Source: a virus
DNA: 31,814 nt
Virus record (IMG/VR): IMGVR_UViG_3300030107_002029
Coordinates: 1-31,814 of that record
Direction: 5' to 3' (one strand)
Position 1 is the stretch's first letter, and each line of letters starts with the position of its first letter. The notes under the pieces are model-generated. The model was given only the letters and a program-made list of their open reading frames with translations. It ran no database searches and had not been told where the DNA came from. The position numbers were made by a program, and so were the translations under genes. This document shows positions 1,036 to 18,530 of this stretch, piece by piece.

Positions 1036-1257
1036 TTACTTCTCCTGTTTATTATTAGGGAAAAGAATTTCTTTTCTTATTCCCAGTATTCTAGAAAATT
1101 TATCCATCATTTGATCGGATATTTTCTGTTGCCCTTTTTTTATCAGAGTGTAATTACATCTATGAACACCTGCCTGTCGACATAACCAAGCAGGTGTCCT
1201 GTCGATGTCCTCCAATATTTGATCTACTACTTTAAGACTTTGCACTTTCCTCTCCAT
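1036..1257 (-). CDS. Small Cro/XRE-like helix-turn-helix regulator
   Basis: A 73-residue protein starting at the ATG at 1257, because GGAGG lies six bases before it; an upstream in-frame ATG at 1275 has no comparable ribosome site. Residues 23-42 (AWLCRQAGVHRCNYTLIKKG) form the helix-turn-helix, followed by QKISDQMMDKFSRILGI, the usual last helices of Cro/XRE DNA-binding domains. No second domain is present, so it resembles Cro more than a CI repressor. It overlaps the 3' end of the zinc-motif gene upstream. A likely target is the control region at 1914-2000 at the head of the operon; that is inference. Confidence 0.75.
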   Translation of the reverse strand: MERKVQSLKVVDQILEDIDRTPAWLCRQAGVHRCNYTLIKKGQQKISDQMMDKFSRILGIRKEILFPNNKQEK

Positions 1258-1537: not shown

Positions 1538-1708
1538 TTATACAACCTCCTCATCTTTAATAAATCTACCATTTAACCAAAAACCACCTTCTGGTTCTTC
1601 TAATTTACTTATTAATCTTTGCATTGACTTTCTTTGTGCCAAAGTCCAACCATAACCTCTTTCATATATAATATTATCTATTTCATTAAATAATTCTTCG
1701 TTTTTCAT
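1538..1708 (-). CDS. 56-residue hypothetical protein
   Basis: A short open frame of 56 codons that exactly fills the space between two other genes. The ATG at 1708 follows the stop of the 67-residue gene by one base, GGAGG lies nine bases upstream, and its own TAA abuts the ATG of the next gene. The protein is charged: it starts MKNEELFNEIDNIIYERGYG, has WTLAQRKSMQRLISKLEE in the middle and ends GGFWLNGRFIKDEEVV. It contains another GGAGG-type site near its end for the gene downstream. No family recognised. Confidence 0.6.
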   Translation of the reverse strand: MKNEELFNEIDNIIYERGYGWTLAQRKSMQRLISKLEEPEGGFWLNGRFIKDEEVV

Positions 1709-1709
1709 A

Positions 1710-1913
1710 TTATGCAACCTCCTTATTTAATCTATTATTTATTTCAACACAATCCCAGCACATAACAGAAATATCATCATTTTTTAATCTTTCATTCCAC
1801 ATATTTTCTACAAATTGAGGCAACTCTCTAACAGATATTTTCATATCTTTTAAATGCTTAATTTGTTTTAAAGTTAATTTTTTATGAAACTTTGCAGTTC
1901 TTTTAATTTTCAT
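1710..1913 (-). CDS. 67-residue basic hypothetical protein, first gene of left operon
   Basis: A small, lysine-rich protein that starts MKIKRTAKFHKKLTLKQIKH and later has two cysteines in SVMCWDCVEIN. The CxxC pair may bind metal, but only one pair is seen. It is the first gene after the terminator at 2010-2035 and so is probably the promoter-proximal gene of the early operon. Its start is preceded by AAAGGGCAAA, the same ten bases found before the gene at 31757. No known family. Confidence 0.55.
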   Translation of the reverse strand: MKIKRTAKFHKKLTLKQIKHLKDMKISVRELPQFVENMWNERLKNDDISVMCWDCVEINNRLNKEVA

Positions 1914-1945
1914 ATCTTTGCCCTTTATGTTGTTTGTTTAACGAT

Positions 1946-1974
1946 ATTTAAAGTTAACACTTTTTATATGTAAC
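1946..1974 (-). promoter_or_regulatory. Weak candidate sigma-70 promoter for left early operon
   Basis: On the minus strand GTTACA (1969-1974) and TTAAAT (1946-1951) are separated by 17 bases, each matching four of six consensus bases. It lies between the terminator of the tail operon and the first early gene, where a promoter is expected. The same stretch holds GTTAAC and GTTAAAC copies that could be operator sites. In AT-rich DNA such matches arise by chance, so this is only a candidate. Confidence 0.3.
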
Positions 1975-2000
1975 CACCAAACAATTTGTTTAGAATAGAA

Positions 2001-2041
2001 AAGAAAAAAATGCTATGAGGGCAAAATCATAGCATCTTTTT
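2001..2041 (-). terminator. Rho-independent terminator after the tail genes, bidirectional
   Basis: A nine-base-pair perfect stem (ATGCTATGA at 2010-2018 with TCATAGCAT at 2027-2035) closes an eight-base loop. On the minus strand it is followed by a run of T's (complement of 2001-2009), and on the plus strand by CTTTTT. It lies about 50 bases beyond the stop of the last tail gene, so it should end the long late transcript and insulate the early operon. Confidence 0.85.
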
Positions 2042-2088
2042 GTGTCATCAGGCGTTACTTGGCTTTTAGGAGGGCATTGTAGTAAGAC

Positions 2089-3159
2089 TTACCAAACTTC
2101 TCTAATTTTTAGCTTTATTGTGTATAAATTAGGTGCAGTCTGGTTAAATTGAAAACTATCTTGGTCGAACATACATATTGCAAAATTTGTTTTATCATCT
2201 TTATCTGGTTGAAATACAAAAGGTAAAGCACCGCCATTAGTTTTTTGTATTACTTGTGAAAAAAATGTATTTTCTGTTGTTAATGTATTTTGCATATAGG
2301 CATTATTAGCTTCTGTTCCTGTTTGATAATCTGTTAAAGATGTCATTGTTGGATGCAGGTCTGAATCTTGAATAAAGCTAAAACTTAAATCCCAAACCCT
2401 TCTTCCTGCACTACTTATATTTTGTAAAGCTATATCTCTGTCTGTATATAAATCTCCTGATCCAAGTTCCCAAGCACCTAGTCCATTAGACCAATTTGGC
2501 TGTTTTGTCCAATAACTATTAGTAAGTGTTGAACCACCTCTTGTTTCTATTGATTTTGTTCCTGTAAATTCTCTGGTCATAGTAATATTTAAATCTGCAC
2601 TATGTGGCATTGTGTAATAAGTTCCATAGAGTATTGAACCTATATTAATTTGTGTGTCTGTATCATAAGAACCATTAAATCTTAATTTAATATATGTACC
2701 ATCATCTGGAGATGATCCACCACCCTCTGACAATCCAAAATCGTGACCATCTGATCCTATATTAATACTATAACCATTATATCCTTGATTATTAAAATTA
2801 ACCATACTATTAACATAGTCATTAGTAGCAACAGCATAGTTTGTTGATGCTGTTGTATCCCAAGATGTTTTTAAATATAAATTAGTTAATCCTATTGATG
2901 CAAAATTATGCCCTAAAACCATATAAAAATTATTATCATTTATCATTATATCTTTAAAATTATATTCAGAATTAATTGCAATATAATCATCAGCAGTAGC
3001 ACCTCCTGTCAATACATTTCCATTTACAGGATTTAAATTAAATAAATTTAAATTAGCACCTGAAAAAGAAGTATTGTTCCAATACAATAATCCTTTAGAA
3101 TTTAACCATTGTAATGTTGATACCCAAAATCTTGGTGTTGTTACCGATTGATATGCCAT
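2089..3159 (-). CDS. Minor tail protein, possibly distal-tail-like
   Basis: A 356-residue protein rich in Asn, Ser, Thr and Gly and predicted to be nearly all beta structure, as in tail fibre or tip proteins. The C-terminal part runs ALPFVFQPDKDDKTNFAIC, then FDQDSFQFNQTAPNLYTIKL and ends KIREVW; this ending recalls distal tail or minor tail proteins of siphoviruses that present a small beta sandwich. It is the last late gene before the terminator and follows the other tail tip genes, which supports a virion role. The exact role (tip, fibre or receptor binding) cannot be read from the sequence. Confidence 0.6.
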   Translation of the reverse strand: MAYQSVTTPRFWVSTLQWLNSKGLLYWNNTSFSGANLNLFNLNPVNGNVLTGGATADDYIAINSEYNFKDIMINDNNFYMVLGHNFASIGLTNLYLKTSWDTTASTNYAVATNDYVNSMVNFNNQGYNGYSINIGSDGHDFGLSEGGGSSPDDGTYIKLRFNGSYDTDTQINIGSILYGTYYTMPHSADLNITMTREFTGTKSIETRGGSTLTNSYWTKQPNWSNGLGAWELGSGDLYTDRDIALQNISSAGRRVWDLSFSFIQDSDLHPTMTSLTDYQTGTEANNAYMQNTLTTENTFFSQVIQKTNGGALPFVFQPDKDDKTNFAICMFDQDSFQFNQTAPNLYTIKLKIREVW

Positions 3160-3168
3160 AAATTACTC

Positions 3169-3681
3169 CTAATATGATGTTTCTGTAGATATAGATAATA
3201 CTTGTGGTGTAGCAGTAGTCTCAACACTACCATCTAATGCTTCTTGTGTTAATTGTCCTGATAAATAATTATTTGCTAATACTTGATTTGGCTTTTTAGT
3301 AGGCTGAACTAATGTACTTGCAACTATTCTATCTTTTGTATACGTTGTGTTCATTTCATCTATATTAATTGTAGCATCTTCAGAATTAGTTTTTATTTTT
3401 TCCGTGTAATCATTCTGCTCATTAACAGTTAATGGTATAAGTTCTGCATTAGAATCTACTGCTATTACTGATGTAATTTTAAAAAATCCTATATAGTCAA
3501 ATAAATCTGATAATATTCCTAAACCAAGTGGGTAAAATATAACCCTATTATTTTTAATAGTTACAACAAAAGAATTTGTTGTTTTATCTGTTAGCTCTAC
3601 ATTGCCTTTAAAATCTATTTGTATTGCCCTAATATCACCTTCAACGCTACAATTACCATTTCCATAATATAAATTAGCCAT
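3169..3681 (-). CDS. Hypothetical tail-tip-region protein
   Basis: A 170-residue protein with no family I recognise. The N-terminal two thirds look like beta strands (GDIRAIQIDFKGNVELTD, then NNRVIFYPLGLGI), and the C-terminal third is polar and Thr/Ser-rich, as in flexible tail proteins. It overlaps the end of the dockerin gene by a few bases and precedes the last tail gene, so it most likely belongs to the tail tip complex. No signal peptide or membrane helix. Confidence 0.5.
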   Translation of the reverse strand: MANLYYGNGNCSVEGDIRAIQIDFKGNVELTDKTTNSFVVTIKNNRVIFYPLGLGILSDLFDYIGFFKITSVIAVDSNAELIPLTVNEQNDYTEKIKTNSEDATINIDEMNTTYTKDRIVASTLVQPTKKPNQVLANNYLSGQLTQEALDGSVETTATPQVLSISTETSY

Positions 3682-4327
3682 TTAAAATTTTCCTGCTTAA
3701 ATCAATTACATCATATTTATCCACAATACGATCTTTGTTTATATCTGCAAAATCAGGCCTATCTATTGCTTTACCTTGCAATATATGATCCGATAATGCA
3801 ACCAAATCTCTCAAATCTATAATTCCGTCACCATTTACATCCCCAATATTCTTTGATGGCTTATATTCGAATCTAATAAAAATCTGTTTAGTATGCATAT
3901 TATCTGCTATAAGTTGAAAAATTACATAAAAAGATTGATCCCTGCTAGTGTCTATAATTTCAAACAAATCTTCTTCAAAATTAACAAATTCAAATTCTTG
4001 TTTGTCATTATTGTAATCTATTTCAACATCAAAACTTTTATTTTGCAATAAAATATTTATATTATTATTAAAAGTAATAGTTCTTAATTCAACTTTTGAA
4101 TATAAGTCTTTTTCATTATCTTTTTTTATTTCTATTTCTGTTGTTAATATTAAATTTTTAATAGAAAATTTTTTATTTTTTATTGAAGAAACCAGATAAT
4201 TATTACTTACAACAATTCCATCTTTGTTATTTTCAGGCAAAGTTAATCCTTTAATCCAATTTATACTTGGCATATATAAAACATTATTTTTTTTTGATGG
4301 TATTATTTCTAGCGAATTAAGTATCAT
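3674..4327 (-). CDS. Tail-region protein with C-terminal dockerin type I domain
   Basis: A 217-residue protein. Residues 1-155 are a beta-rich domain of unknown type. Residues 161-217 form a dockerin: two duplicated calcium-binding F-hand loops, DVNGDGIIDLRD (163-174) and DINKDRIVDKYD (195-206), each with Asp/Asn at loop positions 1, 3, 5, 9 and 12 and followed by a helix (LVALSDHIL and VIDLSRKIL). Dockerins bind cohesin domains in cellulosomes and other surface assemblies. Here the gene lies between the tail tip protein and two minor tail genes and overlaps both neighbours, so it is probably a virion protein. No cohesin is evident in the window. The domain call is strong; the virion location is inferred. 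Confidence 0.75.
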   Translation of the reverse strand: MILNSLEIIPSKKNNVLYMPSINWIKGLTLPENNKDGIVVSNNYLVSSIKNKKFSIKNLILTTEIEIKKDNEKDLYSKVELRTITFNNNINILLQNKSFDVEIDYNNDKQEFEFVNFEEDLFEIIDTSRDQSFYVIFQLIADNMHTKQIFIRFEYKPSKNIGDVNGDGIIDLRDLVALSDHILQGKAIDRPDFADINKDRIVDKYDVIDLSRKILNG

Positions 4328-7300
4328 TACCCTCCCTGTGGCTGTCCTGTGCCACCTTCACCACCACCACCACCCCAATCATCTGCTTCTTTATACCAAT
4401 CTGGAACGTGAAATCCACCATTTGAAGCCATAAATGATGGAGCCATAAATTTATCAGTTGTAAAGACGCTGTCATCATATAATTGTATAGCATAAACATC
4501 TTGTCCTGTAAATGGATATATAGTATCTAACAAAGGTGTTACGGTAAAGGGAGTTATAGGGTCACTATTAGTCCAACCATATATAGAAGATTGTGCCATT
4601 AAGTTTCCTGTTGTGTATTCAACAATATCACCTCCATAGGCACCATATATAATTAGTTTTGATGAAGGATTCCAATTAAATGGATTTATTCCATTTTCAT
4701 CATATGTAAATTTTTGTATGCTTCTAATTGCAGGAATATGAGTTCTTAATTCTTCTAACATAGAACTATTATCTGGTGCCATTGATGTAAAATTGCACAA
4801 CGCCCAATTCACCGAACTAAAATCTCGACCTAAAAGTTCATATCCAGCCCAATTAGTAAAAGTGCAAGTTCCATTATCAACAGTAGCCCAATAATTGTAA
4901 TTGTCAGCATTTTGGTTTGTGCAACCTTGAATTTCTGCCGCTTCATAGGCTTCTGAAAATACATAGTTTATAACTTCATCGTCATCAAAGACAACATCTG
5001 ATGGCATTCCTTGATGTAATTGTATGCATTCAATTTCAACAAATTCCATATTCTTATTTGTTTTTGTTATTAAAAATTCTCCTTGAATGTTTTGATTATT
5101 TAATCCTGTTTTTAAAAGCGTCATACCTTGTGCCACAAAATCAGTATAGTCAATTCCGTAAGGTTTTATTCCCCCCAAGAGTTCATCAAATTTTATTACA
5201 TCTCCAATTTCTCTAGGCAAACCTACTGATAAAGGAACTTTTATATTTATTATCAAATGCTGGTTCATATACCAACCCAGAATAAATCGGCAAAATGCCA
5301 TTGCAGACCTGTCATCTCTTATATAATCTGACCTATGGTCATCTATAATTAAAGTCGATTCTGAATGATCTTGATTAATTTTGTAATAACTAAAAACATC
5401 TCCATTATTTGCACCAATTCTTGCTTCAACAGATTTCCCATAATTGTCTCTTGCATAACTCTTTGCATATTTTAAAACAACTTTTGTTACTACATCTTCT
5501 GCCTTTGTTCTAGAAAATGAAAAATCAATCACATCTTTTGCACTTATATCATATTCATCATTTGTACCAGTTAGAGTAGTAGGAATTGAAAAAATCTTAA
5601 ATTTATTTTGATTGCTAAAAAATGATACATAAGGAGATGCTGAAGAAATTTCTTCTATTAATTTTTTTGCATTAATATTTTGATGAACTGTAAAATTGTG
5701 CTGTATGTCTCTATATGGATTAAGCTCTAAACTAGTTGTGTTATCTGTAAGTGTGCGAATTTGTGTAAAATCAAAATCAATTGCATTTTCTTCTACTCCA
5801 CCTCGTAATTCAAAATTAATTATATTTTTAATTACATTATAAGGTTGAGGAAATTGAGTTTCTGAAACAAACTCTCTACCATTTACCCCTGCATAATAAT
5901 CTTGATCTAGCACTCCTTTTACTAAAGATGATTTTTGAATCCATAAAGTTTTAAATTTTACTTTTAATGCACCCATATATCCTTCATTTATCCCATTATT
6001 TACTGGCATTACAAATAAAATTATATTATTAGTTTTTAAATTTGGATGAAATTTTATTGATTGCTTAAAAGCAATAGTATCATCTCCATTCCATATACCT
6101 GAATTACTTATTTCAACCCAATCTGTAGTATCTAAATTGGAAAACTCCATTATTCCCTGTGCTTCATATTCTGTATCTGCACCTGTTAATACATTAAGAG
6201 ACACAGCCCTTTGCCCCCAATCATTTGCACCCATATTTCCATAATATGCTTCAACTCTACCATACAAAGTAAAAATTACATCTGCTAAACTTCCATCACT
6301 AATTGTATTAGTATTTATATTAAGACCTAAACCAGAAACATCTCTTTCATCGTCTGATACTTCCATATTTGTAATATTAACATCATTGCCATTACCTGTA
6401 ATAGCTTTAGATAATGAATTACCATCCCAGTTATATACAATCGTACCTATAACATAATCATCTTTAACAAATGTGCCAAACATTTCCTCTGAATCCTTGT
6501 TATACAAGGTTGTAAAAAATATATGATCATTTGAGGTAGAACCTACATCCATATTAGAAGCTAAAAATCTAGTGTTATTTTTTTCTATTAAAGGTGTAAC
6601 TGCCATATCTTTCAAATCTCTTTGTTCTAAAATAGGAAGTAAATCTTTTGATATAAAATTATCTTCGCTTGATTTTAATCTAATATATGGAGTTGTCGGT
6701 TTGCCATCATCATCAAACAAATCTTCAATAATTATTGTACTATTACATTCTATATTGTAATCGTGAACATTATACACTTCATCTCTAATTTCCCCATAAC
6801 CTGAATCAAGAAATATATGTGGTTTTACATATGTTAAAGGAATCCTATCAACATAAATATCTACCGAACCATCGCTTAATGAAAAGCCATCTGGTGTTTT
6901 ACTTACATTAGTTTTTAAAACACAAGGACTTTTATCAACTTTACCATAGACCATTGGAACAGGTTTATTTTTATATTTATCAGGAACATCATTTGTATCA
7001 CCTAAATTTTCCAATGGAATTGTTTGATCTAAAATTGCTTGTGATTTATCTTCTAATTCTATTTTTACTTTTTCATCTGTGTGTGTATATCTTCTAACTG
7101 TTCCTGTATATATTTGAAATGCTCTAAAATGAGCATTAGTATCAGCAGGATCATAAGGAACAATATCAAAAAAAGCTAAATCTGTAGTTGATGGTGATGA
7201 CCAAAATATTCTAACTTCTGTATTCATCAAAGAACCAAATTTTTCATCTATTTCATCTGATAATCTTGTTCCTTGATATTCTACATTACTGCAATCTAAA

Positions 7301-7560
7301 GTAACTGAACTTATTTTATATTTTCTTGTTTCTAAATCTATTGATTCTTTTAATGATGGAACATTTAATAAAAGAGGTTTAAAATTTACACCTAATCCTG
7401 TTAATATGTTTCCACTATTTGTTGATAAATATATTGCATCTGTAGGTATTGTTTGACCACTTGCATCTTTTATCAAATTTCTTATAACAATTAATGGAAC
7501 AATACTAGTATGATTGCTTTGTATATCATTGTTAAAATTTGCAGGTATAGCTAGTGCCAT
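4327..7560 (-). CDS. Large tail tip or baseplate hub protein
   Basis: A 1077-residue protein immediately after the tape measure gene (TAAATG junction), the usual position of the distal tail and hub proteins. The N-terminal 220 residues contain FQIYTGTVRRYTHTDEKV and ELEDKSQAILD followed by PVPMVYGKV, resembling the hub-type tail proteins of marine siphoviruses. Residues about 640-850 look like a second conserved hub region (SASPYVSFFSNQNKFKIF). At 879-900 there is a Cys-bounded motif, GCTNQNADNYNYWATVDNGT followed by C, typical of bacterial surface proteins. The protein ends with a Gly-rich tail (WGGGGGEGGTGQPQGG). It may combine hub and receptor-binding functions. Confidence 0.65.
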   Translation of the reverse strand: MALAIPANFNNDIQSNHTSIVPLIVIRNLIKDASGQTIPTDAIYLSTNSGNILTGLGVNFKPLLLNVPSLKESIDLETRKYKISSVTLDCSNVEYQGTRLSDEIDEKFGSLMNTEVRIFWSSPSTTDLAFFDIVPYDPADTNAHFRAFQIYTGTVRRYTHTDEKVKIELEDKSQAILDQTIPLENLGDTNDVPDKYKNKPVPMVYGKVDKSPCVLKTNVSKTPDGFSLSDGSVDIYVDRIPLTYVKPHIFLDSGYGEIRDEVYNVHDYNIECNSTIIIEDLFDDDGKPTTPYIRLKSSEDNFISKDLLPILEQRDLKDMAVTPLIEKNNTRFLASNMDVGSTSNDHIFFTTLYNKDSEEMFGTFVKDDYVIGTIVYNWDGNSLSKAITGNGNDVNITNMEVSDDERDVSGLGLNINTNTISDGSLADVIFTLYGRVEAYYGNMGANDWGQRAVSLNVLTGADTEYEAQGIMEFSNLDTTDWVEISNSGIWNGDDTIAFKQSIKFHPNLKTNNIILFVMPVNNGINEGYMGALKVKFKTLWIQKSSLVKGVLDQDYYAGVNGREFVSETQFPQPYNVIKNIINFELRGGVEENAIDFDFTQIRTLTDNTTSLELNPYRDIQHNFTVHQNINAKKLIEEISSASPYVSFFSNQNKFKIFSIPTTLTGTNDEYDISAKDVIDFSFSRTKAEDVVTKVVLKYAKSYARDNYGKSVEARIGANNGDVFSYYKINQDHSESTLIIDDHRSDYIRDDRSAMAFCRFILGWYMNQHLIINIKVPLSVGLPREIGDVIKFDELLGGIKPYGIDYTDFVAQGMTLLKTGLNNQNIQGEFLITKTNKNMEFVEIECIQLHQGMPSDVVFDDDEVINYVFSEAYEAAEIQGCTNQNADNYNYWATVDNGTCTFTNWAGYELLGRDFSSVNWALCNFTSMAPDNSSMLEELRTHIPAIRSIQKFTYDENGINPFNWNPSSKLIIYGAYGGDIVEYTTGNLMAQSSIYGWTNSDPITPFTVTPLLDTIYPFTGQDVYAIQLYDDSVFTTDKFMAPSFMASNGGFHVPDWYKEADDWGGGGGEGGTGQPQGG
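4858..4926 (-). other. Cys-bounded GCT...NY...ATVDNGTC surface motif
   Basis: Codons 879-901 of the tail tip gene encode a short unit with the pattern GCT-x5-NY-x3-ATVDNGTC. Units of this pattern (often written GCTDxxAxNYxxxATxDDGSC) recur in secreted and surface proteins of marine bacteria. It marks the point where the phage hub-like part ends and the C-terminal 180-residue part begins, and looks like an acquired module. Confidence 0.6.
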
Positions 7561-9309
7561 TTATGATACTCCAAAATCATTACCACGCCTAATAGCTTCT
7601 TTTATCTGCTCTGCTAATTCACCTTCTACATAATCTTGGCTCATAACATTGCCTGATACATTTATAGTTACGCTTCCTTGACCTTGCGGTCCATTTATGT
7701 TGGGCGAAGAAAGAGGAGTAACTTGGACACGTTCTCGACCGCCCATATTATCCCCTACTTTTATTAATTGCGGTCCACTTGTAACAAAATCACCACCTGT
7801 TGCAAATGATGCTAACCCTTTATCCATTATTCCACTAACAGTTGCACCTGCACCTGCCGCTAATATTGCATTTACTGGAAACGGAACAGTCTTTAATATA
7901 GATGCAATTAAATTTGCAACACCTTCCATACTAGCATTTTTAACTGCCGATTTCATAGCATCTTTAGCAGAACCTGTTGTTTTAGCAAAACCTGCTAATT
8001 CAGTTGATGTTAATTTTTTGTTAAAAAATATTCTTTTTTTAGTTCCTTCATTTGAAGTTTCATTTTTATTTTCTTCACTTTTTTCAACTTCTTTATTTTT
8101 AACAATTATTTTATTTAAATATTCACCTAGCAATTCAGATTGTGCACCTGCTAAATCAGTCAATGTATTAATATTATCTTCTGAACCTTGTTTAAATAAT
8201 TGCACAACCTCTGCATTAGCCATAGATAAACCTTCTAAATCTATTAACTGCCCCATTTCTAGTGGTTGTATATTTGCACCTAATGTATTTGCAATACCTA
8301 TCAATACATTAAACTGTTCCTTTAAAAAATTTGTCATAGTAATAAAAGAATTTCTAATTTTTCCTATTACTATCTGGATTCCTATAAACAAGGGTTCAAA
8401 TAAAAATCCTCCTACATTTTTTACACCTTCAAGCAAACTTGTTAAAACCTTACCTGCCATTGGTAATATTTTATTAAATGCAAAACCAAAAATATCTGGA
8501 ATAAAACTAAAAGACAATTTAAAACTATCTATCATAAATTTACCTATTAAGCCCACATTTTCCTTTAAATTGTTAAATGTTTCTTTAAAATCAATATTTC
8601 CTATAAAATCAAAAGCATTAATAGCATCTTCACTAAATTGTTTTAAAACTTTTGCACCCTCTGTAGCCATAGGCAATAATAATTTACCCAATGCTTCTGT
8701 AGCATCTCCCATAGCATTCTTGGCTTGATCCATAGCACCAGAAAATGTTTTTATTTCAGCTTCTGCCGCACCTTTAAACATTTCCCTCATAACTTCTATA
8801 CCTTTACCTGCTTTCAATTCTTCTGCTGATAAATTCTTTAATGCACCAACACTTTCTCCCAATTCACCTTGCATACCAGATAATGTTTTTGCAGTATTCT
8901 TTACAGCAGATTCTAAAGACATACCTGTCGCAGATGCTAAATCTAATGTAACAGGAATCATATCTTTTATTTGCTGTTCAGACATTCCAATAGATGCTAA
9001 ATATGCTTGTTGCTGAATTATAGCTTCATCACCAAATCTTGATGTTTGTTGTAATGCACCTGCTTGTTTTAATAAAGCATCTGTATTTTTGCCTAATGCT
9101 TGTGCTAGTTTTCTTTCTTGCAACTCTTGTTCTGCCGCCGCACTTGTAGCTTTTTTCATAGCAACACCAAGAGCAACTGCACCACCTGTTGCACCTACCA
9201 TAGCAAATTTTGATAAACTAACTAATGATCCAGAAAGTTTTTTAATTCCACTTGATGCAGTTTTAACACCCTTTGTAGTTACATTTATTAATAAATTAGT
9301 TTTTGCCAT
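7561..9309 (-). CDS. Tail tape measure protein
   Basis: A 582-residue protein with the features of tape measures: long Ala/Gly/Lys-rich helical stretches, an early hydrophobic segment (FAMVGATGGAVALGVAM), a conserved block (GMSEQQIKDMIPVTLDLASA) and further hydrophobic helices toward the end. It starts 14 bases inside the end of the frameshifted tail chaperone frame, the classic order. At about 1.5 angstroms per residue, the tail would be near 85-90 nm, a rough estimate from length alone. No lysozyme or peptidase domain is visible. Confidence 0.9.
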   Translation of the reverse strand: MAKTNLLINVTTKGVKTASSGIKKLSGSLVSLSKFAMVGATGGAVALGVAMKKATSAAAEQELQERKLAQALGKNTDALLKQAGALQQTSRFGDEAIIQQQAYLASIGMSEQQIKDMIPVTLDLASATGMSLESAVKNTAKTLSGMQGELGESVGALKNLSAEELKAGKGIEVMREMFKGAAEAEIKTFSGAMDQAKNAMGDATEALGKLLLPMATEGAKVLKQFSEDAINAFDFIGNIDFKETFNNLKENVGLIGKFMIDSFKLSFSFIPDIFGFAFNKILPMAGKVLTSLLEGVKNVGGFLFEPLFIGIQIVIGKIRNSFITMTNFLKEQFNVLIGIANTLGANIQPLEMGQLIDLEGLSMANAEVVQLFKQGSEDNINTLTDLAGAQSELLGEYLNKIIVKNKEVEKSEENKNETSNEGTKKRIFFNKKLTSTELAGFAKTTGSAKDAMKSAVKNASMEGVANLIASILKTVPFPVNAILAAGAGATVSGIMDKGLASFATGGDFVTSGPQLIKVGDNMGGRERVQVTPLSSPNINGPQGQGSVTINVSGNVMSQDYVEGELAEQIKEAIRRGNDFGVS

Positions 9310-9724: not shown

Positions 9725-9990
9725 TTTTTTTTATTAGCTTGTTCAAATATTGCATTTGCAATAGCTATTATTTCATCAGTTGAATAATTATTCAATTCTT
9801 CTTCACTTAATTCGGTGTATTTTAAAACTACATTTCCCCACCAAGAAAATTTAGGAACATTACCTTCTGAATTTGCTTCAATCATCATATCATTTAACTC
9901 ACACCTCATTTTCCAAGTGATAGTTTTTATTGATATTTCAAATTGTTTAAACTCCTGCCCCTCTGATGCTTTTATTTTAATATCTTTCAT
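9721..9990 (-). CDS. Tail assembly chaperone (gpG-like)
   Basis: An 89-residue protein between the tail tube gene (TAATG overlap) and the tape measure gene. It begins MKDIKIKASEGQEFKQFEIS and is followed by helices with ELNDMMIEANSEG and LSEEELNNYSTDEIIAIA, as in small tail chaperones. It ends with three AAA lysine codons and then TAG, which is the slippery site for making the longer fusion. Position, size and the frameshift signal together support the call more than any single motif. Confidence 0.8.
   Translation of the reverse strand: MKDIKIKASEGQEFKQFEISIKTITWKMRCELNDMMIEANSEGNVPKFSWWGNVVLKYTELSEEELNNYSTDEIIAIANAIFEQANKKK
9724..9732 (-). promoter_or_regulatory. Programmed -1 ribosomal frameshift site (nine A's)
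   Basis: On the minus strand AAT is followed by nine A's and then TAG. The run contains the A_AAA_AAA heptamer, a strong slippery sequence in bacteria. Slipping back one base moves ribosomes from the stop into the frame open to 9296. The two frames join without any intervening stop. Confidence 0.8.
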
Positions 9991-11027
9991 TATGCTATTG
10001 TAATTCCTAACATTTTAGTTGCACTTGAAGTATCATCTAAACCAACCACTACAAATGGTATAGTTTCTGTTAATACAGCACCACCATTATCAATACTTGG
10101 CTCATTTAATAAGCATCTATCTAATGCTATTGCAAAACCACTTGATTCTGCTATATTTATATCAACTGAATTGCTGTCATAAAATTTAGCAAGTAAATCG
10201 TGAACATCATCATTTCTAATACAGGTAATAGAGCCATTAATATCAAAATTTCCTGTCATAGCATATCCAAAAGGCTCATAGCTTCCATTAGTATTATCCA
10301 CATAATGTATTCTTTCTATTGTTCGCTGAACAGATAATTCCCAAGATTGAATAACTAATTCCTCTAATGCACCACCATTAATACCTGTAGAACCAGAAGC
10401 TAGGCTTCTTATGTTTTTAGGTGTTCCAGTATCATATGCCGCACTTGTAATATCATCATCAGCTTGTGCTGTTGCATTATCTGGCATATATGCTGTAGCC
10501 CAACTTATAGTGCAGACAAGTTCACCACCTTCGCTTCCAATATCTTCTGTTAATGTAAACCCTGTTCCCACACAACCACGACAAACTACATTGTGAAGTG
10601 TAGCATCTGCACCTGCATCAATAAATCTTATGTTAAATGTATTAGGTGATGATGCTGAATCGTGCTGATAAGATGCTGTTGGAAAAGCATAATTGTTATT
10701 CAACTCTGCTTCACTTGCGGCATCCTCAAAAACTGCACTTGTTGCTAATAAAACTGATGTAGGTGTACCTCGCAAAGTTGTCTCAAATGTCCACATTTTA
10801 GTTCCTTGCGAATGATGTCCTTGTGTTGTAGTAGTAACAAATTGACCACTACGAGGACTAGAAAATTCAAGAGGAACAGATGCTTCTGGTATTGTAAATG
10901 ATGTGGTTTGTAATTTTGTTAAACCTGCATTGTCCACAGTATCATCTTGACTTCTTCCAACTTTTGTCTCTTTTTCATACCAAACAGAAACATTTTGGCT
11001 TGGAAAGTAATTAGTTGCTTGTGCCAT
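9990..11027 (-). CDS. Major tail tube protein
   Basis: A 345-residue, beta-rich protein located just before the tail chaperone and tape measure genes, as expected for the tail tube subunit. Recognisable parts include WELSVQRTIERIHYVDNTNG, EPFGYAMTGNFDINGSI and CLLNEPSIDNGG with an IPFVVVGLD ending, similar in style to siphovirus tube proteins that carry an inserted domain. A good ribosome site (AAGGAGATAAATA) precedes the ATG, consistent with high expression. It overlaps the chaperone start by one base. Confidence 0.8.
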   Translation of the reverse strand: MAQATNYFPSQNVSVWYEKETKVGRSQDDTVDNAGLTKLQTTSFTIPEASVPLEFSSPRSGQFVTTTTQGHHSQGTKMWTFETTLRGTPTSVLLATSAVFEDAASEAELNNNYAFPTASYQHDSASSPNTFNIRFIDAGADATLHNVVCRGCVGTGFTLTEDIGSEGGELVCTISWATAYMPDNATAQADDDITSAAYDTGTPKNIRSLASGSTGINGGALEELVIQSWELSVQRTIERIHYVDNTNGSYEPFGYAMTGNFDINGSITCIRNDDVHDLLAKFYDSNSVDINIAESSGFAIALDRCLLNEPSIDNGGAVLTETIPFVVVGLDDTSSATKMLGITIA

Positions 11028-11256: not shown

Positions 11257-11499
11257 TTATGCTTTATTTTTTAAATATTCTGCAAATTCTTCTGGTTCCA
11301 TAGTATGCTCTTTATAATAGTCTTTTGATTTAAGACTATCAACTTTAGCTTCTAATTCTTCTTCTGTTGCATAATTTTCTAAATTAGGTTGCCCTGTAGT
11401 TACCCTTTGACCACTTTCTAATTTACCAAAATGCACTACATCACTACCCCAAGCACACCAATAATATTTGTTTATATTCTTATATTTTAATTCAGCCAT
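11257..11499 (-). CDS. 80-residue hypothetical virion-region protein
   Basis: An acidic protein with WCAWGSDVVHFGKLESGQ, then YATEEELEAKVDSLKSKDYY. The segment G-x-Y-A-T-E-E-E-L followed by a short amphipathic helix is a pattern seen in small proteins of phage tail regions, often beside fibres. Its ATG overlaps the stop of the BspA-repeat gene (TAATG), so it is probably co-translated with it and may act with it. Function unknown. Confidence 0.55.
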   Translation of the reverse strand: MAELKYKNINKYYWCAWGSDVVHFGKLESGQRVTTGQPNLENYATEEELEAKVDSLKSKDYYKEHTMEPEEFAEYLKNKA

Positions 11500-14060
11500 T
11501 AACCATCTCCATCAACTATTGTCCAACTATGGTCAGTTTCTAAATTTGTTCTTGCAGTAGCACCATTTCCACCTGCACCTCCATCTGTTGCAGTTGCATC
11601 ACCACCATCAAGTGAATGGTTATCTGTGCTATTTGTTGCATCAAGCCTTACTAATAATTTATTGTAATTAACTGTACTCATTTTATTAGTGCTTGTCTTG
11701 CCATTCATAAATTCATTAAAACCTTGTGATGTATTAGTTACTCCTGAAAAATCCCAAGTTGATAAGTCTTGGTCAAAAGCTAAAGCCCTATCAAACATAT
11801 GCCCCATTATTGTTACATTAGAAACATCCCAATCTGAACCACTTGTGGGAATAGCTTTATTAAAAACTGTTGCTTCTGAAAACATATATCTCATACTTGT
11901 AACACTTGATGTATCCCAACCACTTATATCTCTATTAAATGATGTTGCTTTTTTAAATGTTCTATACATTGAAGTTACATTTCCTGTATTCCAATTATTT
12001 ATATCATCACTACCTCCATTGTCAAAAGCAGTACATTCTCTAAATAATTCAGTAAAATCAGTTACATTAGCAACATTCCAAGAACCTATGTTTTGATTAA
12101 AACTTCTAGCATCATAAAACATAGATGTCATATTGGTTACATTAGACACATCCCAACTACCTATGTCTTGATTAAAAGAAGTAGCATTATTAAACATACT
12201 ATTCATATCAGTAACATTAGATGTATCCCATCCACTTATGTCTTGATTAAAGTTGGTTGATGCCCAAAACATTCCTGCTGTTCTTGTAAATCTTGCTGTT
12301 TTACTACCCCAATTTAATGGACTATTAAATACATTCATAGCTCTAAACATTCCAAAAGCATCAATATCAGAATCTGTTGTAAATGTCCAATTTGATAAAT
12401 CTTGATTAAATGCATCTGCATTGTAAAAAGTATAGGTAAAATCTGTACCTGCACTTACATTCCAACTTGAAATATCTTGATTAAATACAGATGCAAGTTG
12501 AAACATAGATTTAAAAGTTGTTACAGAGCTAACATTCCATTTATTACCATCTGTTGGTAAAGGTTGATTAAAAGATGAAGCACTTCTAAACATTGATTCC
12601 ATATTAGTTACACTAGATGTATCCCAATTTTTAATATTATCACTACCACCATTGTTAAAAGCAGAAGCACCATAAAACATTTCATTCATAGTAGTTACAT
12701 TTCCTGTATTCCAACTACCTATGTCTTGATTAAATATTGCTACTCCTAAAAACATCCTGAAAAAAGTTGTTACATTAGATGTATCCCATCCACTTATATT
12801 CTGATTAAAAGAATCTGCTTGTGCAAACATATAATCCATAAGCTGACCACTTGATGTATCCCAATTAACAACATCAGAACCATTAAAATTTGTACAACCT
12901 TTAAACACATTATTAAATCCTGTAACATTAGAAACATCCCATCCTGTTCCTATTGCTGTTAATGTAGTACAATTCAAAAATGTTGCATTTAAAGTTGTTG
13001 AAGTTATTGTAGGTGCATTACTTGCTGTTACATTTAAATTTGTGCATCCACTAAAAGTTTGTTCTTCTGTAATATCTAACCCACCCCAATTACTAATAGT
13101 TTTTATATATGTTCTACTTGCACTTGTACCTGCAAATTTTAAACCTTTTACAATACCATCTATTGTAATAGTATGGTTGCCTGAATCAAGTGTTTTAGTT
13201 AAATCATCATCATCATGTGAAGTAATATCAAGAGGTGAACCATCACCCCAATCTATAGTAAAATTTGGAGTATGCCCTGCAACTGAAACAAGAGGTAATG
13301 TAAAAGAATTGCCACCTGTATTTACTGTAAATATAAATTTCGGTACATAAGTCCAATTAAATACATCCGATGCTTCATTACCACTAGCACCAGAACTATA
13401 TTTTCCTTCTTCAACTTTTATTGTAGTTGCACCTTGTGATGCAGGTGTAAATGTGGCTGTATAAACTGAACCAGAACCACTAAAGTCACTCAATGATCCA
13501 TTTGTTACTGTTATGCTATTAATATTAAAATCAGTTGTCGGCAAGTTTGTTGTAAAAGTTAAAGATAATGCACTATCAGAAGATGTACCACCATCTGCAA
13601 CTTGTGATGCTGTTATTGTTACACTTGGAGTTAATAGTTGATTATTATGAATACAGGTAAATGATGCAATTACAATAATCTGTTCTTCTTCTGTTTCTAT
13701 ATCTACATTGTCTATACTGCAATCATAGGCAGTAGTTCCATCACCCAATGCTAGAATCTGGTTATTTTCTATTAATGTTTCTATTCTGGATGTTATTCTG
13801 TATATATGATCTTCAAGATTTTTTGTCTTTTTTAATGTATTATAATAATATTGAATTTCAAAATTATAACTTCTTCTTTCAAATATAGAATCATTTGCTA
13901 GATTAACACTTGATGTAGGAACTACTCTTATATATTGAGAATCTTGTATATTTTTATTGTAAATTGAATATACTTTTAAACTACTACCAAACTCAATTTT
14001 TAATAAATTGTTTAATCTATCGGTTATTGATTGCCAATTATTTCCAAAGCCTAAAGCCAT
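11499..14060 (-). CDS. Tail-terminator-like domain fused to BspA-type (DUF285) repeats
   Basis: An 853-residue mosaic. Residues 1-138 are homologous to the whole neighbouring 143-residue protein (NNWQSITDRLNNLLKIEFGS matches NNWKNIGDKLRNIFRSEFGA). Residues 145-238 look like a bacterial Ig-like domain (SLTFTTNLPTTDFNINSITV). Residues 241-312 have the WGDG-type domain that precedes BspA repeats in bacterial surface proteins. Residues 335-780 hold about 16 repeats of 25-29 residues with the consensus MFxxAxxFNQDIxxWDTSNV. Residues 781-853 match the usual C-terminal cap ending in HSWTIVDGDG. BspA-like proteins bind host surfaces or matrix. In this phage the N-terminal domain would place the repeats at the neck or tail. 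Confidence 0.8.
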   Translation of the reverse strand: MALGFGNNWQSITDRLNNLLKIEFGSSLKVYSIYNKNIQDSQYIRVVPTSSVNLANDSIFERRSYNFEIQYYYNTLKKTKNLEDHIYRITSRIETLIENNQILALGDGTTAYDCSIDNVDIETEEEQIIVIASFTCIHNNQLLTPSVTITASQVADGGTSSDSALSLTFTTNLPTTDFNINSITVTNGSLSDFSGSGSVYTATFTPASQGATTIKVEEGKYSSGASGNEASDVFNWTYVPKFIFTVNTGGNSFTLPLVSVAGHTPNFTIDWGDGSPLDITSHDDDDLTKTLDSGNHTITIDGIVKGLKFAGTSASRTYIKTISNWGGLDITEEQTFSGCTNLNVTASNAPTITSTTLNATFLNCTTLTAIGTGWDVSNVTGFNNVFKGCTNFNGSDVVNWDTSSGQLMDYMFAQADSFNQNISGWDTSNVTTFFRMFLGVAIFNQDIGSWNTGNVTTMNEMFYGASAFNNGGSDNIKNWDTSSVTNMESMFRSASSFNQPLPTDGNKWNVSSVTTFKSMFQLASVFNQDISSWNVSAGTDFTYTFYNADAFNQDLSNWTFTTDSDIDAFGMFRAMNVFNSPLNWGSKTARFTRTAGMFWASTNFNQDISGWDTSNVTDMNSMFNNATSFNQDIGSWDVSNVTNMTSMFYDARSFNQNIGSWNVANVTDFTELFRECTAFDNGGSDDINNWNTGNVTSMYRTFKKATSFNRDISGWDTSSVTSMRYMFSEATVFNKAIPTSGSDWDVSNVTIMGHMFDRALAFDQDLSTWDFSGVTNTSQGFNEFMNGKTSTNKMSTVNYNKLLVRLDATNSTDNHSLDGGDATATDGGAGGNGATARTNLETDHSWTIVDGDG
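11721..13058 (-). repeat. About 16 in-frame BspA-type repeats
   Basis: Tandem coding repeats of 75-87 bases within the 853-residue gene. The protein unit reads MFxxAxxFNQDIxxWDTSNVTxM. Some copies carry short insertions before the Trp (GGSDNIKNW, PTDGNKW). Copies differ at DNA level, so this is an old array and not a recent slippage expansion. Confidence 0.85.
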
Positions 14061-14491
14061 TACATATTATCAAAATGAATGCAACTATAATCCATTTCAA
14101 CTATATAATCATAAACCTCATCAACCTCTGTTATTTCATAAGATAACATTATAGAATCAATAGTTTGTGTGCTATCTGCTAATGTCATATTTCTATTACT
14201 TGCAATCAATGATTCTGCTCTTGACATTATTCTATACAATTTGTTGATATTATTCTTGTTAGAATTTGTTTTTGCTATATACAGAAATAAATTAAATGTG
14301 TATTCTTTTATTTCTCCTGTTCCTTGTTTTTCTAATATCTCATTTCCTGTTGGAATTATTTTTATAAATTGTTGATCTGCATAATCGCCTTCACCTATAT
14401 AAACTGGAATTGATGCACCAAATTCTGATCTAAATATATTTCTTAACTTGTCGCCAATATTTTTCCAATTATTTTTGTAGCTAACAGGCAT
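14060..14491 (-). CDS. Tail terminator or neck protein
   Basis: A 143-residue protein starting MPVSYKNNWKNIGDKLRNIF. It lies between the DUF1320-like connector and the tail tube gene, the usual place of the tail terminator or tail completion protein. Size and the pattern of a helix followed by strands (QQFIKIIPTG, EYTFNLFLYI, IVEMDYSCIH) fit that family. It is the shorter member of a tandem duplication; the next gene repeats this domain as its N-terminus. It overlaps that gene by one base. A head-tail connector role is the alternative. Confidence 0.65.
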   Translation of the reverse strand: MPVSYKNNWKNIGDKLRNIFRSEFGASIPVYIGEGDYADQQFIKIIPTGNEILEKQGTGEIKEYTFNLFLYIAKTNSNKNNINKLYRIMSRAESLIASNRNMTLADSTQTIDSIMLSYEITEVDEVYDYIVEMDYSCIHFDNM

Positions 14492-15496
14492 TTACAATCC
14501 ATACCCTCGTCTTGTTAATTGTATTCCACCAGATTCTGCATTTGTTATTTTTCTATGTTCAGAATAAACTTCTATTTCCCATTGGTCATTTACAGACATT
14601 GATGCACCTTGAAATCTGACATATAAACCACTTAACCCACCAAATGTATCAAGAGTTCCACTAATTATATTATCTGTATCCTCTGAACCATATAATTTAT
14701 CACTTCCATAATACTCTACCTTAACCTTTGCTACACCATAAGCACCAGCAGTCGTGCAGGTAATCCGAAGCAAATCAAAGGGTTCTCCAACATAAGCACC
14801 TGCTGTTTCTACTAAATCCATACTTCCTGCTTTTGTTATGGTTCGTATTTTTCCTTGACTTGAATCAGATGTTACTTCAAATGATAATTTTGCTTCTCCC
14901 TTATTTAACTTATCAACAATTCCTGTTCCTTCTATGTTAGTAACTAAAGAATGATAATAATCCGCATTTTCTTGTTTATTCTCTGTTCTTAATAAATTAG
15001 AAGCACATAAATAGCAAGTTGCTTTAATTATGATTGCATCATATTCTGTAGTTCCGCTAGAATGGGCTGTATTGTGGTCATATTGAGTATATTTTGGTAT
15101 TGGGGTAGGATACCTTCGGTCTAACAAATTATTGAGTTCCATTGAAGCATTTACAAGCATTTGATTAAAATATGTAGCATTGTCTATACCTGCTTCAAAT
15201 AATTGATCTAATATTGTTGTTGCAGAGTATCCAGAATTATAATAATAAATAGAATCTAAATCAGCATCATAATACCATTCACCATTTACATTTAATACAC
15301 CACTATTAGCTTCTGGATCACCCTCATCATAGCCATTAACAAAAAATTGGGTAACTAAACCAACATTGTCTGCTCTAAATAAAGTTCCACTATGTACAAC
15401 CCAACCTGTTATTTGTTTTTTTGTATCAAATTGACTAAATGCTGGATAATACATCTCCAAATCTGTTTGATTTGCATATTTAAAATCACTTGGCAT
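14492..15496 (-). CDS. Head-tail connector with DUF1320-like core, enlarged
   Basis: A 334-residue protein. Residues 105-200 contain LNNLLDRRYPTPIP (121-134) and then an alanine- and cysteine-containing helix (IIIKATCYLCASNLL), the pattern of the Mu gp36/DUF1320 head-tail adaptor family, in which helices frame a RYP-type turn. Usual members are about 130-150 residues, so this one carries extra parts: about 100 residues before the core and a beta-rich C-terminal section (GLYVRFQGASMSVNDQWEIE). It lies between the 24-residue peptide gene and the terminator-like gene, as expected for a connector. Confidence 0.65.
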   Translation of the reverse strand: MPSDFKYANQTDLEMYYPAFSQFDTKKQITGWVVHSGTLFRADNVGLVTQFFVNGYDEGDPEANSGVLNVNGEWYYDADLDSIYYYNSGYSATTILDQLFEAGIDNATYFNQMLVNASMELNNLLDRRYPTPIPKYTQYDHNTAHSSGTTEYDAIIIKATCYLCASNLLRTENKQENADYYHSLVTNIEGTGIVDKLNKGEAKLSFEVTSDSSQGKIRTITKAGSMDLVETAGAYVGEPFDLLRITCTTAGAYGVAKVKVEYYGSDKLYGSEDTDNIISGTLDTFGGLSGLYVRFQGASMSVNDQWEIEVYSEHRKITNAESGGIQLTRRGYGL

Positions 15497-15499
15497 ATT

Positions 15500-15574
15500 T
15501 TATTTCCTTCTTTTAGGTGTTTTCTTTTTAGGTCTGCCTACCTTTTTACCATAAGTTCCTGTTCCTTTTGGCAT
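15500..15574 (-). CDS. 24-residue basic peptide (MPKGTGTYGKKVGRP type)
   Basis: A tiny gene in the gap between two structural genes. The ATG at 15574 is preceded by GGAG at suitable distance, and the stop lies three bases before the next gene. The product starts MPKGTGTYGKKVGRP and is then almost all Lys, Arg, Pro and Thr. Very small basic proteins beginning MPKGxGTYG are found in the structural region of many marine and other tailed phages, but their function is not known. Confidence 0.7.
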   Translation of the reverse strand: MPKGTGTYGKKVGRPKKKTPKRRK

Positions 15575-15583
15575 AATATTCTC

Positions 15584-17116
15584 CTATTTTAATCCTATTA
15601 CTTCTATTACTGCATTGATTTTACTATTACAACTTCTCCCTGCTACCTGTACTATAGAATTACCTGCTGATACAGTAAACTCATTTCCTCCAGATAATGC
15701 TGAACCATAATTAGCATCAACAACAAAGTTTGAATTGGCTGGACAGCCCTGCAAGTCTATAGAGCCGCTTTCATAGTTAATAGTACCATTACAAGCACCT
15801 TGTATATTTCCGTGACCATCATCATAAAAGAAAGCACTCATATTAGGAATTGAATTATTAGTTTTAGGATCATTTATTGTATCATCTGGTAATTTTGCAG
15901 GAACTGCCGCTTCTATATCTCCAACAGCCATACTAATAGCACCAACTCCAAAAGGTGTAGTGCCACTTGCAGGTGCAGATATTGCTATTGCTGATGTTGA
16001 TAAATGTTGTCCTGATGTAAATCTAATATCTCCATTTACTATACCAATATGAACCTTTTTATTTAATAAATTAGAACTTGTTGTATAAAATTGCTCATCT
16101 AGTGCTGTTTGAATTTTTTGTATTAAACCATTATTTCCACCAAAATTACCATTTGTAGAATCCGTAGTAAAAGACAATGTATGATCTGATCCGCCATCTA
16201 CCGCTATATCTAAAGCATAGGCAGTTGATGCCGCTAATCCTGTTTTAGTTGAAGTTGTAATTCCTGACAATCCTAATTCTTGATAACCTGCTTGATAAAA
16301 CTTTCCAGAAACCGAACCTGCTACTATACCATCTGCTACTGCATCACCTGTTCGCCCGTATCCGAAAAAATTAAAACATTTAAAACGACCACTTCCGTCA
16401 GTTTGAGCAGTAGAATATTTATCAAAATCTGCATAAGCATTGAAATACGGTAATCTAATTGCAACATCGTCAGCGTGGGTTGCCGCTGTTGAACCATATA
16501 ATCCCCTTTCTATTGTGCAGGTACTATTAGCTAAATCTGCACCTGTTCCAACAGCAGTGACTTTGCATATCTCGTTTTCTATTCTTATTAAATCACCGAC
16601 CTTGAAAAACTTTGAATGTCCATTTTCAAGATTTAATGTTGTATGTGTTGCATCTGAACCCATAGTAGCATCAGTAGCGTGATCTAAATCTGCTGTACTA
16701 TCAGAATATAAACCTAATGGTGCTTGATTTGTAAGTTGATATGAATCACTTGCTGAACCATCTGTAGTTCCATAGTTTATTTGTTTAAAATTAGGTAACA
16801 TCATATAATCACCTGCACCAAGCAAATAGTTTTGAAGTGATACATTTCCATTTGTATCTGGTGTTGCTTGAGACCAAGTCTCTGTTTTTATCTGTATTTC
16901 TGCACCAACAGAACTTGAATTTTTAATAATCAATGTTTTGCAATCCTGCAATGTTCCCTGTGCCTTTGATCCACCAAGAAGAAGATTAATAAAAGTGCTT
17001 GTATTATCACATTCCTGCCTTACATTAAAAACATCTTCATACTGTCCTGATTTTGTTGCAGTTAAAGTATCTCCCCTTCCTGTTGTTATATTTGTTGTTG
17101 TTGTAAAACTTGGCAT
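15584..17116 (-). CDS. Large virion structural protein, fibre- or decoration-like
   Basis: A 510-residue Ser/Thr/Gly-rich beta protein. Residues about 165-220 read KVGDLIRIENEICKVTAVG followed by CTIERGLYGSTAATH, a small beta module seen in many phage fibres and baseplate proteins. The N-terminal part has NYLLGAGDYMMLPNFKQINY. It lies between the capsid genes and the connectors, so it might be a head fibre, neck or tail fibre protein. I cannot assign a more exact role. Confidence 0.6.
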   Translation of the reverse strand: MPSFTTTTNITTGRGDTLTATKSGQYEDVFNVRQECDNTSTFINLLLGGSKAQGTLQDCKTLIIKNSSSVGAEIQIKTETWSQATPDTNGNVSLQNYLLGAGDYMMLPNFKQINYGTTDGSASDSYQLTNQAPLGLYSDSTADLDHATDATMGSDATHTTLNLENGHSKFFKVGDLIRIENEICKVTAVGTGADLANSTCTIERGLYGSTAATHADDVAIRLPYFNAYADFDKYSTAQTDGSGRFKCFNFFGYGRTGDAVADGIVAGSVSGKFYQAGYQELGLSGITTSTKTGLAASTAYALDIAVDGGSDHTLSFTTDSTNGNFGGNNGLIQKIQTALDEQFYTTSSNLLNKKVHIGIVNGDIRFTSGQHLSTSAIAISAPASGTTPFGVGAISMAVGDIEAAVPAKLPDDTINDPKTNNSIPNMSAFFYDDGHGNIQGACNGTINYESGSIDLQGCPANSNFVVDANYGSALSGGNEFTVSAGNSIVQVAGRSCNSKINAVIEVIGLK

Positions 17117-17125
17117 TTCTTCTCC

Positions 17126-17920
17126 TTATCTAATGTGGTAATAAATATCTAGTGTTAATGAAACATCTCCTGTATCTGTTGCATTTTCTAAAAATCCTAC
17201 TACAACTTTTCCACTATCTATATTAGCAGAATCTAGTGTAAATGTTCCTGTTTTAATAGTTGTTGCTGTTGCAGGTATTGAACCACTTGCACACACTACA
17301 CCATTTGACAAATCTCCGTGATTTGTTGTTGTGTCTAAATCATAACTCATTAAATGCATATTAATAGTTCCTGAAGTATCTGCTCTAACCATTGACCTAA
17401 CTAAATCTAATGTAATATTATGTTGTATGTACCAATATACTGCTATCGCATTTTCTGGATCAGTTAATCCGCTAACGTCTAAACTTGTTGCAGGATCAGT
17501 TCCATTACCCCAATCATCATCATAAGTAAGTCCTTCTGCACCTTGCATACCAACCCTATTTGCTATAAGTGGATAATGATACCCTGCACTATTTGGTGAA
17601 AATTCATATACGCCCATCTCTTTGTGCATTGTAAGAACATTTGCTAGTGATGCACCTGCTTTTACAGTAGAATCTGTTGTATTAGCTTGTAATATCTGAT
17701 CACCACCTGCTGTCTGAACATTAAAATTCCCTGTAGAATCTAGTGCTGAACTTGTAGGCTGAATATTTAAACCTGCTTTTCCAATCTTAACTGCACTAGC
17801 AACACCATCACCTGTTTCTATTGCTCTGCTAGAATTGTCAAATCCTGTATTAGATGATTGGCTAACCTGCATAATTCTTTTGTAAAAACTTGATAGTGGG
17901 TTTCCTTGAAATGTTGGCAT
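17126..17920 (-). CDS. Virion structural protein, fibre-like
   Basis: A 264-residue protein. The N-terminal half contains GNFNVQTAGGDQILQANTTD, a pattern seen in trimeric fibre shafts, and the C-terminal half is a beta domain ending SGKVVVGFLENATDTGDVSL and IYYHIR. It shares this layout (short shaft followed by a beta domain) with the next gene, 17925-18530, and precedes the 510-residue structural gene. It is probably part of an external appendage or decoration. No catalytic motif is seen. Confidence 0.55.
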   Translation of the reverse strand: MPTFQGNPLSSFYKRIMQVSQSSNTGFDNSSRAIETGDGVASAVKIGKAGLNIQPTSSALDSTGNFNVQTAGGDQILQANTTDSTVKAGASLANVLTMHKEMGVYEFSPNSAGYHYPLIANRVGMQGAEGLTYDDDWGNGTDPATSLDVSGLTDPENAIAVYWYIQHNITLDLVRSMVRADTSGTINMHLMSYDLDTTTNHGDLSNGVVCASGSIPATATTIKTGTFTLDSANIDSGKVVVGFLENATDTGDVSLTLDIYYHIR

Positions 17921-17924
17921 ATTT

Positions 17925-18530
17925 TTATCCTAAAGTTATTAAATTGGAAGGCAAAGCAGTTACCTTCATTATAAAATCACAATATCTACCTGATGATGTT
18001 CCACCCCAAGCTAGATATTTAGTTGTTCCAGATGTTTTTGCACCAAGCCAATAAGTTGTAGGTCTATTTACTGTTAAGCCCTTTACTACCCAATGATTAA
18101 CAATAACTCCATCATCAGTTTCATCAGGATAGCTTATTAATTGCTCATAGCTGTTACCTAGAGAATTATATGAATCTGAATCAGAAAGACTTAAATATAA
18201 ACTCTTATTAGAACTTAAAGAATTTTGATATATTTGAACCATTATTTCAACACACCCACTTGGTGGCACAATAAAATCAACTTTTAAATCAGCATCTACT
18301 ACAGCATAAGATGTTGTAAGTGATTCTGAAGCGTGTCCTGAATCTGAACCAACAGATGTATAGCCTATAATATCACCTGCCCTGACAGGCATAGTTACAT
18401 CTCCTGCAACTTCCAATGATCCATTTACCCTTGCATTTTCAGTAGATATTTCAAGGGCAGAATTTTGCCCTGCTACTTTTACAGGTCTTAAATTCTCATC
18501 AATACTATTTTGCAGGGTTAAATCATTCAT
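17925..18530 (-). CDS. Virion structural protein, fibre-like
   Basis: A 201-residue protein starting at the ATG at 18530; a TTG codon just before it is less likely. Residues 25-50 contain ISTENARVNGSLEVAGDVTM, the repeat-like shaft sequence of many phage fibres. The rest is a beta-rich domain (VDFIVPPSGCVEIMVQIYQ, YLSLSDSDSY, KYLAWGGTSSGRYCDF), which may be a receptor-binding or trimerisation head. Its start overlaps the end of the coiled-coil gene before it by eight bases. Confidence 0.55.
   Translation of the reverse strand: MNDLTLQNSIDENLRPVKVAGQNSALEISTENARVNGSLEVAGDVTMPVRAGDIIGYTSVGSDSGHASESLTTSYAVVDADLKVDFIVPPSGCVEIMVQIYQNSLSSNKSLYLSLSDSDSYNSLGNSYEQLISYPDETDDGVIVNHWVVKGLTVNRPTTYWLGAKTSGTTKYLAWGGTSSGRYCDFIMKVTALPSNLITLG

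Follow-up and report, generated by a model that had tools for sequence, protein, structure and literature searches.

The window, by which we mean the whole stretch of DNA analysed (31,814 nucleotides, positions 1 to 31,814 of the IMG/VR virus record IMGVR_UViG_3300030107_002029), contains on its minus strand, at positions 11499-14060, an open reading frame of 853 aa without internal stop. The encoded protein comprises a tail-terminator domain (hereafter the anchor) followed by a long C-terminal arm, which is built of a bacterial Ig-like domain of the Big_12 type, a WGDG domain, 16 DUF285/PARCEL repeats and an end cap. TAATG stop/start overlaps couple this armed gene both to a plain terminator copy located upstream and to a small gene downstream. 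The features of the locus are as follows:

14492..15496, minus strand: putative adaptor, the neck gene upstream of the terminators (position, helical segment, conservation in relatives)
14060..14491, minus strand: plain tail terminator, first copy, 143 aa (paralogue of the anchor)
13635..14060, minus strand: anchor, predicted tail-terminator domain, residues 1-142 (paralogy to the plain copy, AF2 model, matches to T5 p142 and lambda gpU)
13365..13631, minus strand: bacterial Ig-like domain Big_12, residues 144-232 (Pfam PF19078)
13131..13364, minus strand: WGDG (PKD-like) beta domain, residues ~233-310 (sequence motif, beta strands in the model)
11721..13058, minus strand: 16 DUF285/PARCEL repeats, residues ~335-780 (PF03382, TIGR02167, repeat spacing)
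11499..11720, minus strand: C-terminal end cap and stop codon, residues ~781-853 (likeness to other DUF285 caps)
11257..11499, minus strand: 80-aa gene lying after the armed terminator and before the tube (89% identical in contig L104, at the same place)
9990..11027, minus strand: probable tail tube protein (position between terminator and tape measure, order in relatives)
7561-9309: tape measure (phrog_991, 1.3e-7)

The names adaptor and tube are inferred from sequence alone, by position and conservation and without family match; profile searches returned no family for the 14492-15496 neck gene. No annotated cultured relative of the phage was found, and its terminase showed only broad similarity to those of cyanophages, enterobacterial and other phages.

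The arm is of a bacterial adhesin type. Big_12 was matched at residues 144-232 (E 1.1e-9, 38.9 bits versus a cut-off of 27) and the DUF285 profile PF03382 over the remaining arm (E 1.6e-124, 409 bits versus a cut-off of 25), while the NCBIfam PARCEL repeat TIGR02167 scored 120 bits with a cut-off of 30. The repeat tryptophans are spaced 25-29 residues apart from position 373 to 768, giving 16 repeats, 14 of them located by pattern and two (W660 and W768) added by eye, in keeping with the tandem units of ~25-26 residues that characterize the family. The WGDG domain of the window protein is not matched by Pfam and was recognized by its motif and by the beta strands at 233-309 in the whole-protein model; confidence of that model is low over the arm as a whole, and a whole-protein Foldseek search added no dependable match for the repeats. 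Caps similar to that of the window protein (YNKLL...TARTNL...WTIVDGDG) occur in other DUF285 proteins, both from phages and from bacteria. The arm belongs, cap included, to the DUF285/PARCEL/BspA family, which is widespread in phages (112 records) and whose PARCEL elements are known to spread horizontally (PMC2996958). No close bacterial donor was found, the best segments being 28-44% identical (Bacteroidota, Asgard archaea and others), and the other phage members fetched had no detectable terminator domain.

Since proteins of the DUF285 type usually belong to bacterial cell surfaces, it could be argued that the armed protein is not part of the virion and acts during infection, for instance on the host surface or after release, as a block against other phages. 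We consider this very unlikely. The gene sits in a structural operon, is coupled to the plain terminator and begins with a terminator domain. Moreover, it stops right after the cap with no export or sorting domain detectable by Pfam, unlike the bacterial relatives of the arm, which carry secretion/sorting domains (CHU_C in L121, Por_Secre_tail in L131). Their apparent lack in the window protein is more in keeping with a virion component than with a protein of the cell surface.

The anchor is a paralogue of its plain neighbour. Residues 1-138 are identical to the 143-aa protein at 47 of 140 positions (34%, E 2e-24), and the optimal alignment score of 213 compares with a mean of 34 and a maximum of 58 in 500 shuffles. 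An AF2 model of residues 1-144, computed from 17 sequences of the window and its relatives, reached a mean pLDDT of 82.8 and showed the order helix, strands, helix, strands. Its best match among solved structures was T5 p142 (Z 16.1, rmsd 2.1 over 134 residues), followed by matches to the Mu and GTA terminators and lambda gpU (Z 13.8), and the match lists consisted almost entirely of terminators, collars and neck proteins. Profile support was weak, as Phage_tail_terminator_8 (PF20765) scored 19.0 bits, under its cut-off of 24.2, and no curated profile identified a terminator above cut-off; the assignment rests on structure. Single-sequence searches with the two terminators of the window returned no matches, and profile and neighbour-gene searches were needed because this family diverges fast. 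Thus residues 1-142 have a tail-terminator fold, as predicted by the model, and are a paralogue of the plain copy. A sequence-only reading of the window had proposed that the N-terminal 138 residues match the neighbouring terminator-like protein, that this domain is a neck or tail-terminator domain, and that the remainder is an Ig-like domain, a WGDG domain, about 16 repeats and a cap; these three claims held. In BFVD, a 946-aa uncultured Caudovirales protein (A0A6J5L8B8) could be aligned with 144 columns of the terminator model (E 2.4e-7) and might be another long terminator fusion.

Relatives of the locus were collected with the probable tube protein, a 510-residue protein upstream of the adaptor and the terminators as queries, plus two arm-based scans. 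The terminator family was present in 141 distinct IMG/VR contigs, all metagenomic (138 counted plus L233, L234 and L236), usually in the order adaptor, terminator, small gene, tube, tape measure. A single plain terminator, with a median length of 145 residues, was the rule, as found in 121 of the 127 contigs complete from adaptor to tube (126 plus L233); L024 has two plain copies. Absence of DUF285 in relatives was judged from open reading frames and the repeat pattern, the PF03382 scan being unusable as its positive control was also empty. Other neck proteins also gain domains, since the adaptor-position protein of L008, L012, L013 and L010 has an inserted domain matching residues ~119-214 of the protein encoded at 15584-17116 of the window. 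Four contigs have an extra ORF of 330-333 aa between the adaptor and the last tube-profile match (L080:12341-13333, L088:12344-13336, L161:6138-7139 and L216:2001-2993), which could encode a tube-like protein.

Long C-terminal arms on a terminator were found in 11 contigs, the window included. This share of 11 in 141 is a biased frequency, given the particular queries and the fact that two were made from arms. Two of the others, L104 (1122 aa) and L105 (548 aa, truncated by the contig end), carry the Big_12-DUF285 arm of the window, in both cases directly behind a plain terminator, and in L104 the repeats are interrupted by a laminin-G domain. The arms of L030, L031, L050, L060, L092, L233, L234 and L236 carry instead Laminin_G_3, a concanavalin-like lectin domain. 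In every armed contig except L050 a plain copy, whole or partial, lies just upstream of the armed one; the L050 contig stops inside the arm, and a downstream plain copy is not excluded. The armed gene was never seen outside the slot between terminator and tube in the contigs examined. L032 remains undecided, as its contig stops just after a second terminator domain. Altogether L030, L031, L032, L050 and L105 end inside the arm or just past the second terminator domain, so armed terminators are possibly undercounted; breaks of this kind would be natural where the sampled population carries repetitive or highly variable arms.

Repeats can mislead assembly, and the termination of four of these contigs (L030, L031, L050 and L105) inside the arm could raise the suspicion that the fusion is an assembly chimera or a decaying gene. 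This explanation was rejected and is all but excluded, since three contigs, the window, L104 and L105, show the same architecture with different sequences. Furthermore, the frames are intact (774-1122 aa in the complete armed cases), dN/dS of the arm is 0.45-0.70 and stop and start codons overlap on both sides of the gene. An assembly error, which the sequence-only reading had left as a possible refutation, was therefore not borne out.

Phylogenetic analysis of the terminator domains grouped the first copies of the window, L104, L105 and L024 in one clade (100/99) and their second copies in another (99/100), which indicates a duplication common to the four. As L024 illustrates, a second copy can exist without arm, having either never gained or lost it. 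The L030/L031/L032 and L060/L092 pairs lie in other parts of the tree, and the armed copy of L050 is nested among plain single copies, a distribution likely to reflect several separate arm gains. The exact placements are uncertain because the alignment behind the tree has 146 columns and some branches are long, the longest being that of the second copy of the window (2.07).

The arms have a history of their own. Between the window and L105 the anchors are only 33% identical, whereas the Big_12-WGDG part is 85% and the repeats 91% identical; synonymous divergence is 0.20 in the arm and 0.65 in the anchor. These are simple Nei-Gojobori estimates, with the anchor near saturation. In addition, region 15520-18530 of the window shares 88.9% DNA identity with L105, while for the adaptor and tube genes the likeness is to the L003/L015 lineage. 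The window is therefore a mosaic with a junction near the border of anchor and arm. The opposite arrangement occurs in the L060 family. Anchors of L060 and L092 are identical or nearly so over the first 150 residues, and their arm blocks drop to 13-40%; pairwise across the five members of the family, anchor windows are 89-98% identical and arm blocks fall to 9-49%, with hinges at 326-375, 526-550 and 701-750 retaining 74-98% identity. Hence, arms move and vary INDEPENDENTLY of anchors in both the window/L105 pair and the L060 family, and the pattern of the latter is the one expected for a fixed mount with interchangeable binding domains.

Taken together, these data make it likely that a second terminator paralogue anchors a long exchangeable adhesin arm, probably at the neck. 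The terminator fold (as modelled), the duplication, the intact fusion, its recurrence, the arm exchange and the gene overlap are shown; the location in the virion, the composition of the ring and the ligand are inferred. In the mechanism that we propose, the coupled genes would give the phage two terminator-fold proteins, one plain and one armed. Armed copies would join the terminator ring, or form a second ring on top of it, at the head-tail joint, and their C-terminal arms would face outward, up to about six of them. The arms may then bind glycans, extracellular polymer or particles, weakly and multivalently, before the tail tip meets its receptor. Domain swapping would diversify the arms, and the anchor would remain constant because, in this proposal, it has to fit the neck. 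A binding task of this kind seems likely from the lectin domains and from the lactococcal neck fibres discussed below, though only by analogy. Neck placement is likewise inferred, without virion data or a multimer model, from the fold of the anchor and from the slot that it shares with the single plain terminator of the relatives. Counting against outward arms, the authors of the T5 work suggested that a C-terminal tag on the terminator may fold into the lumen.

Two rival explanations concern the place and the task of the arm. In the first, the armed paralogue left the terminator ring after duplication and became a virion adhesin elsewhere, for example on the tail side or at the tip. T5 p143 is found on the tail side although gene order predicts the neck, the plain copy alone could do the capping, and the second anchor of the window is unusually diverged; its branch of 2.07, together with a dN/dS against L105 of 0.99, near-neutral but near saturation, calls for caution, since this anchor may have changed role. 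However, the anchors retain the terminator fold, those of the L060 family are as strongly conserved as expected for a part fitting a fixed partner, and the gene stays in the terminator-tube slot in the contigs examined. We therefore regard this alternative as unlikely. In the second, the arm is structural rather than adhesive and braces the neck or spaces head from tail, as collar and decoration proteins do; a reinforcing role at the neck has been proposed for the decoration proteins of phage 812, and a stabilising one for the Milano collar. A brace should be conserved, yet variability within the protein is highest in the arm blocks, which adopt unrelated folds across relatives, and most relatives lack any arm; we hold this explanation to be very unlikely. 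An exchangeable adhesin mounted at the neck thus remains our preferred interpretation.

The terminators of lambda (gpU), T5 (p142) and SPP1 (gp17) have the same fold and the same position just before the tube gene, but they are proteins of ~130-160 aa without adhesin, whereas the window has two copies, one with a 700-aa arm. A terminator fold with an added domain in one chain is also found in phage 812, where a beta-sandwich domain binds the sheath (PMC12886913), in phiCD508, whose terminator ring is double-layered (PMC13324602), and in PVC16, a precedent for an extra terminator domain (PMC11784142). In these contractile machines the addition serves sheath binding or a second ring layer; in the window, a probable siphophage, it is a bacterial-type adhesin, and in relatives a lectin. 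The closest functional analogy is the neck passage structure of lactococcal phages (TP901-1 and the 936 group), whose fibres bind carbohydrate (PMC6669499) and end in variable carbohydrate-binding modules. That structure is held in place by a ring protein of BppU-like type, a separate component with coiled coils, and not by a terminator domain, and the window protein has neither a Pfam match to BppU nor, in its low-confidence model, a long helix from anchor to cap. Whiskers, collars and spikes are also known at the necks of T4, XM1 and phi29 (PMC10491603). The T4 whiskers (wac), XM1 collar spikes and phi29 appendages have proposed roles in host sensing or attachment, but they are separate collar proteins, mostly coiled coils, without terminator fusion.

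Neck whiskers and phage DUF285 proteins are thus already known; what appears to be new is the terminator-anchored swappable arm. The sequence-only reading was aware of no described phage protein of this design, and neither an adhesin fused to a tail terminator nor a swappable arm anchored in this way was found in the open-access literature searched, mostly titles and abstract starts, which is weak evidence of absence. Its suggestion that the arms sit at the neck and hold the phage to polymers or particles remains inference, without virion evidence. It had not foreseen that the arms are exchangeable, DUF285 or lectin, nor that there are usually two terminators, of which the second bears the arm. 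We lean, with some reservation, towards the bolder reading that these proteins represent a new class of neck appendage, in which a dedicated second terminator serves as socket for variable DUF285 or laminin-G arms; by the same narrow margin, this siphophage lineage would possess a binding system apart from the tail tip that diversifies by swaps on a constant anchor.

Phage adhesion has been studied mainly at the tail tip. If the arms are on virions, the head-tail joint would be a second adhesion platform in these phages, and the evolutionary route would be duplication of the terminator followed by the attachment of an exchangeable binding arm to one of the copies. The constant anchor and variable arm of the L060 family make surface or host specificity testable by arm comparison, and the same combination constitutes a sequence signature that can be searched in other phages.

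Several observations lie beside this argument. The contig L106 comes from an unrelated phage and encodes, at 410-7652, a DUF285 protein of 2267 aa directly after a head-tail adaptor Ad1 gene (phrog_477, 1.1e-8); the N-terminal 150 residues of this protein had no matches in searches, and it is conceivable that it is another neck protein with an arm of this kind. Among the tail genes of the window, the protein encoded at 3674-4327 carries at its C-terminus a dockerin type I domain (PF00404, 1.6e-7) and is matched by the end of a 1338-aa tail protein of L013. Finally, region 26987-29134 of the window contains adjoining genes for Mom-like DNA modification, a ParB-like protein and a DNA methyltransferase.
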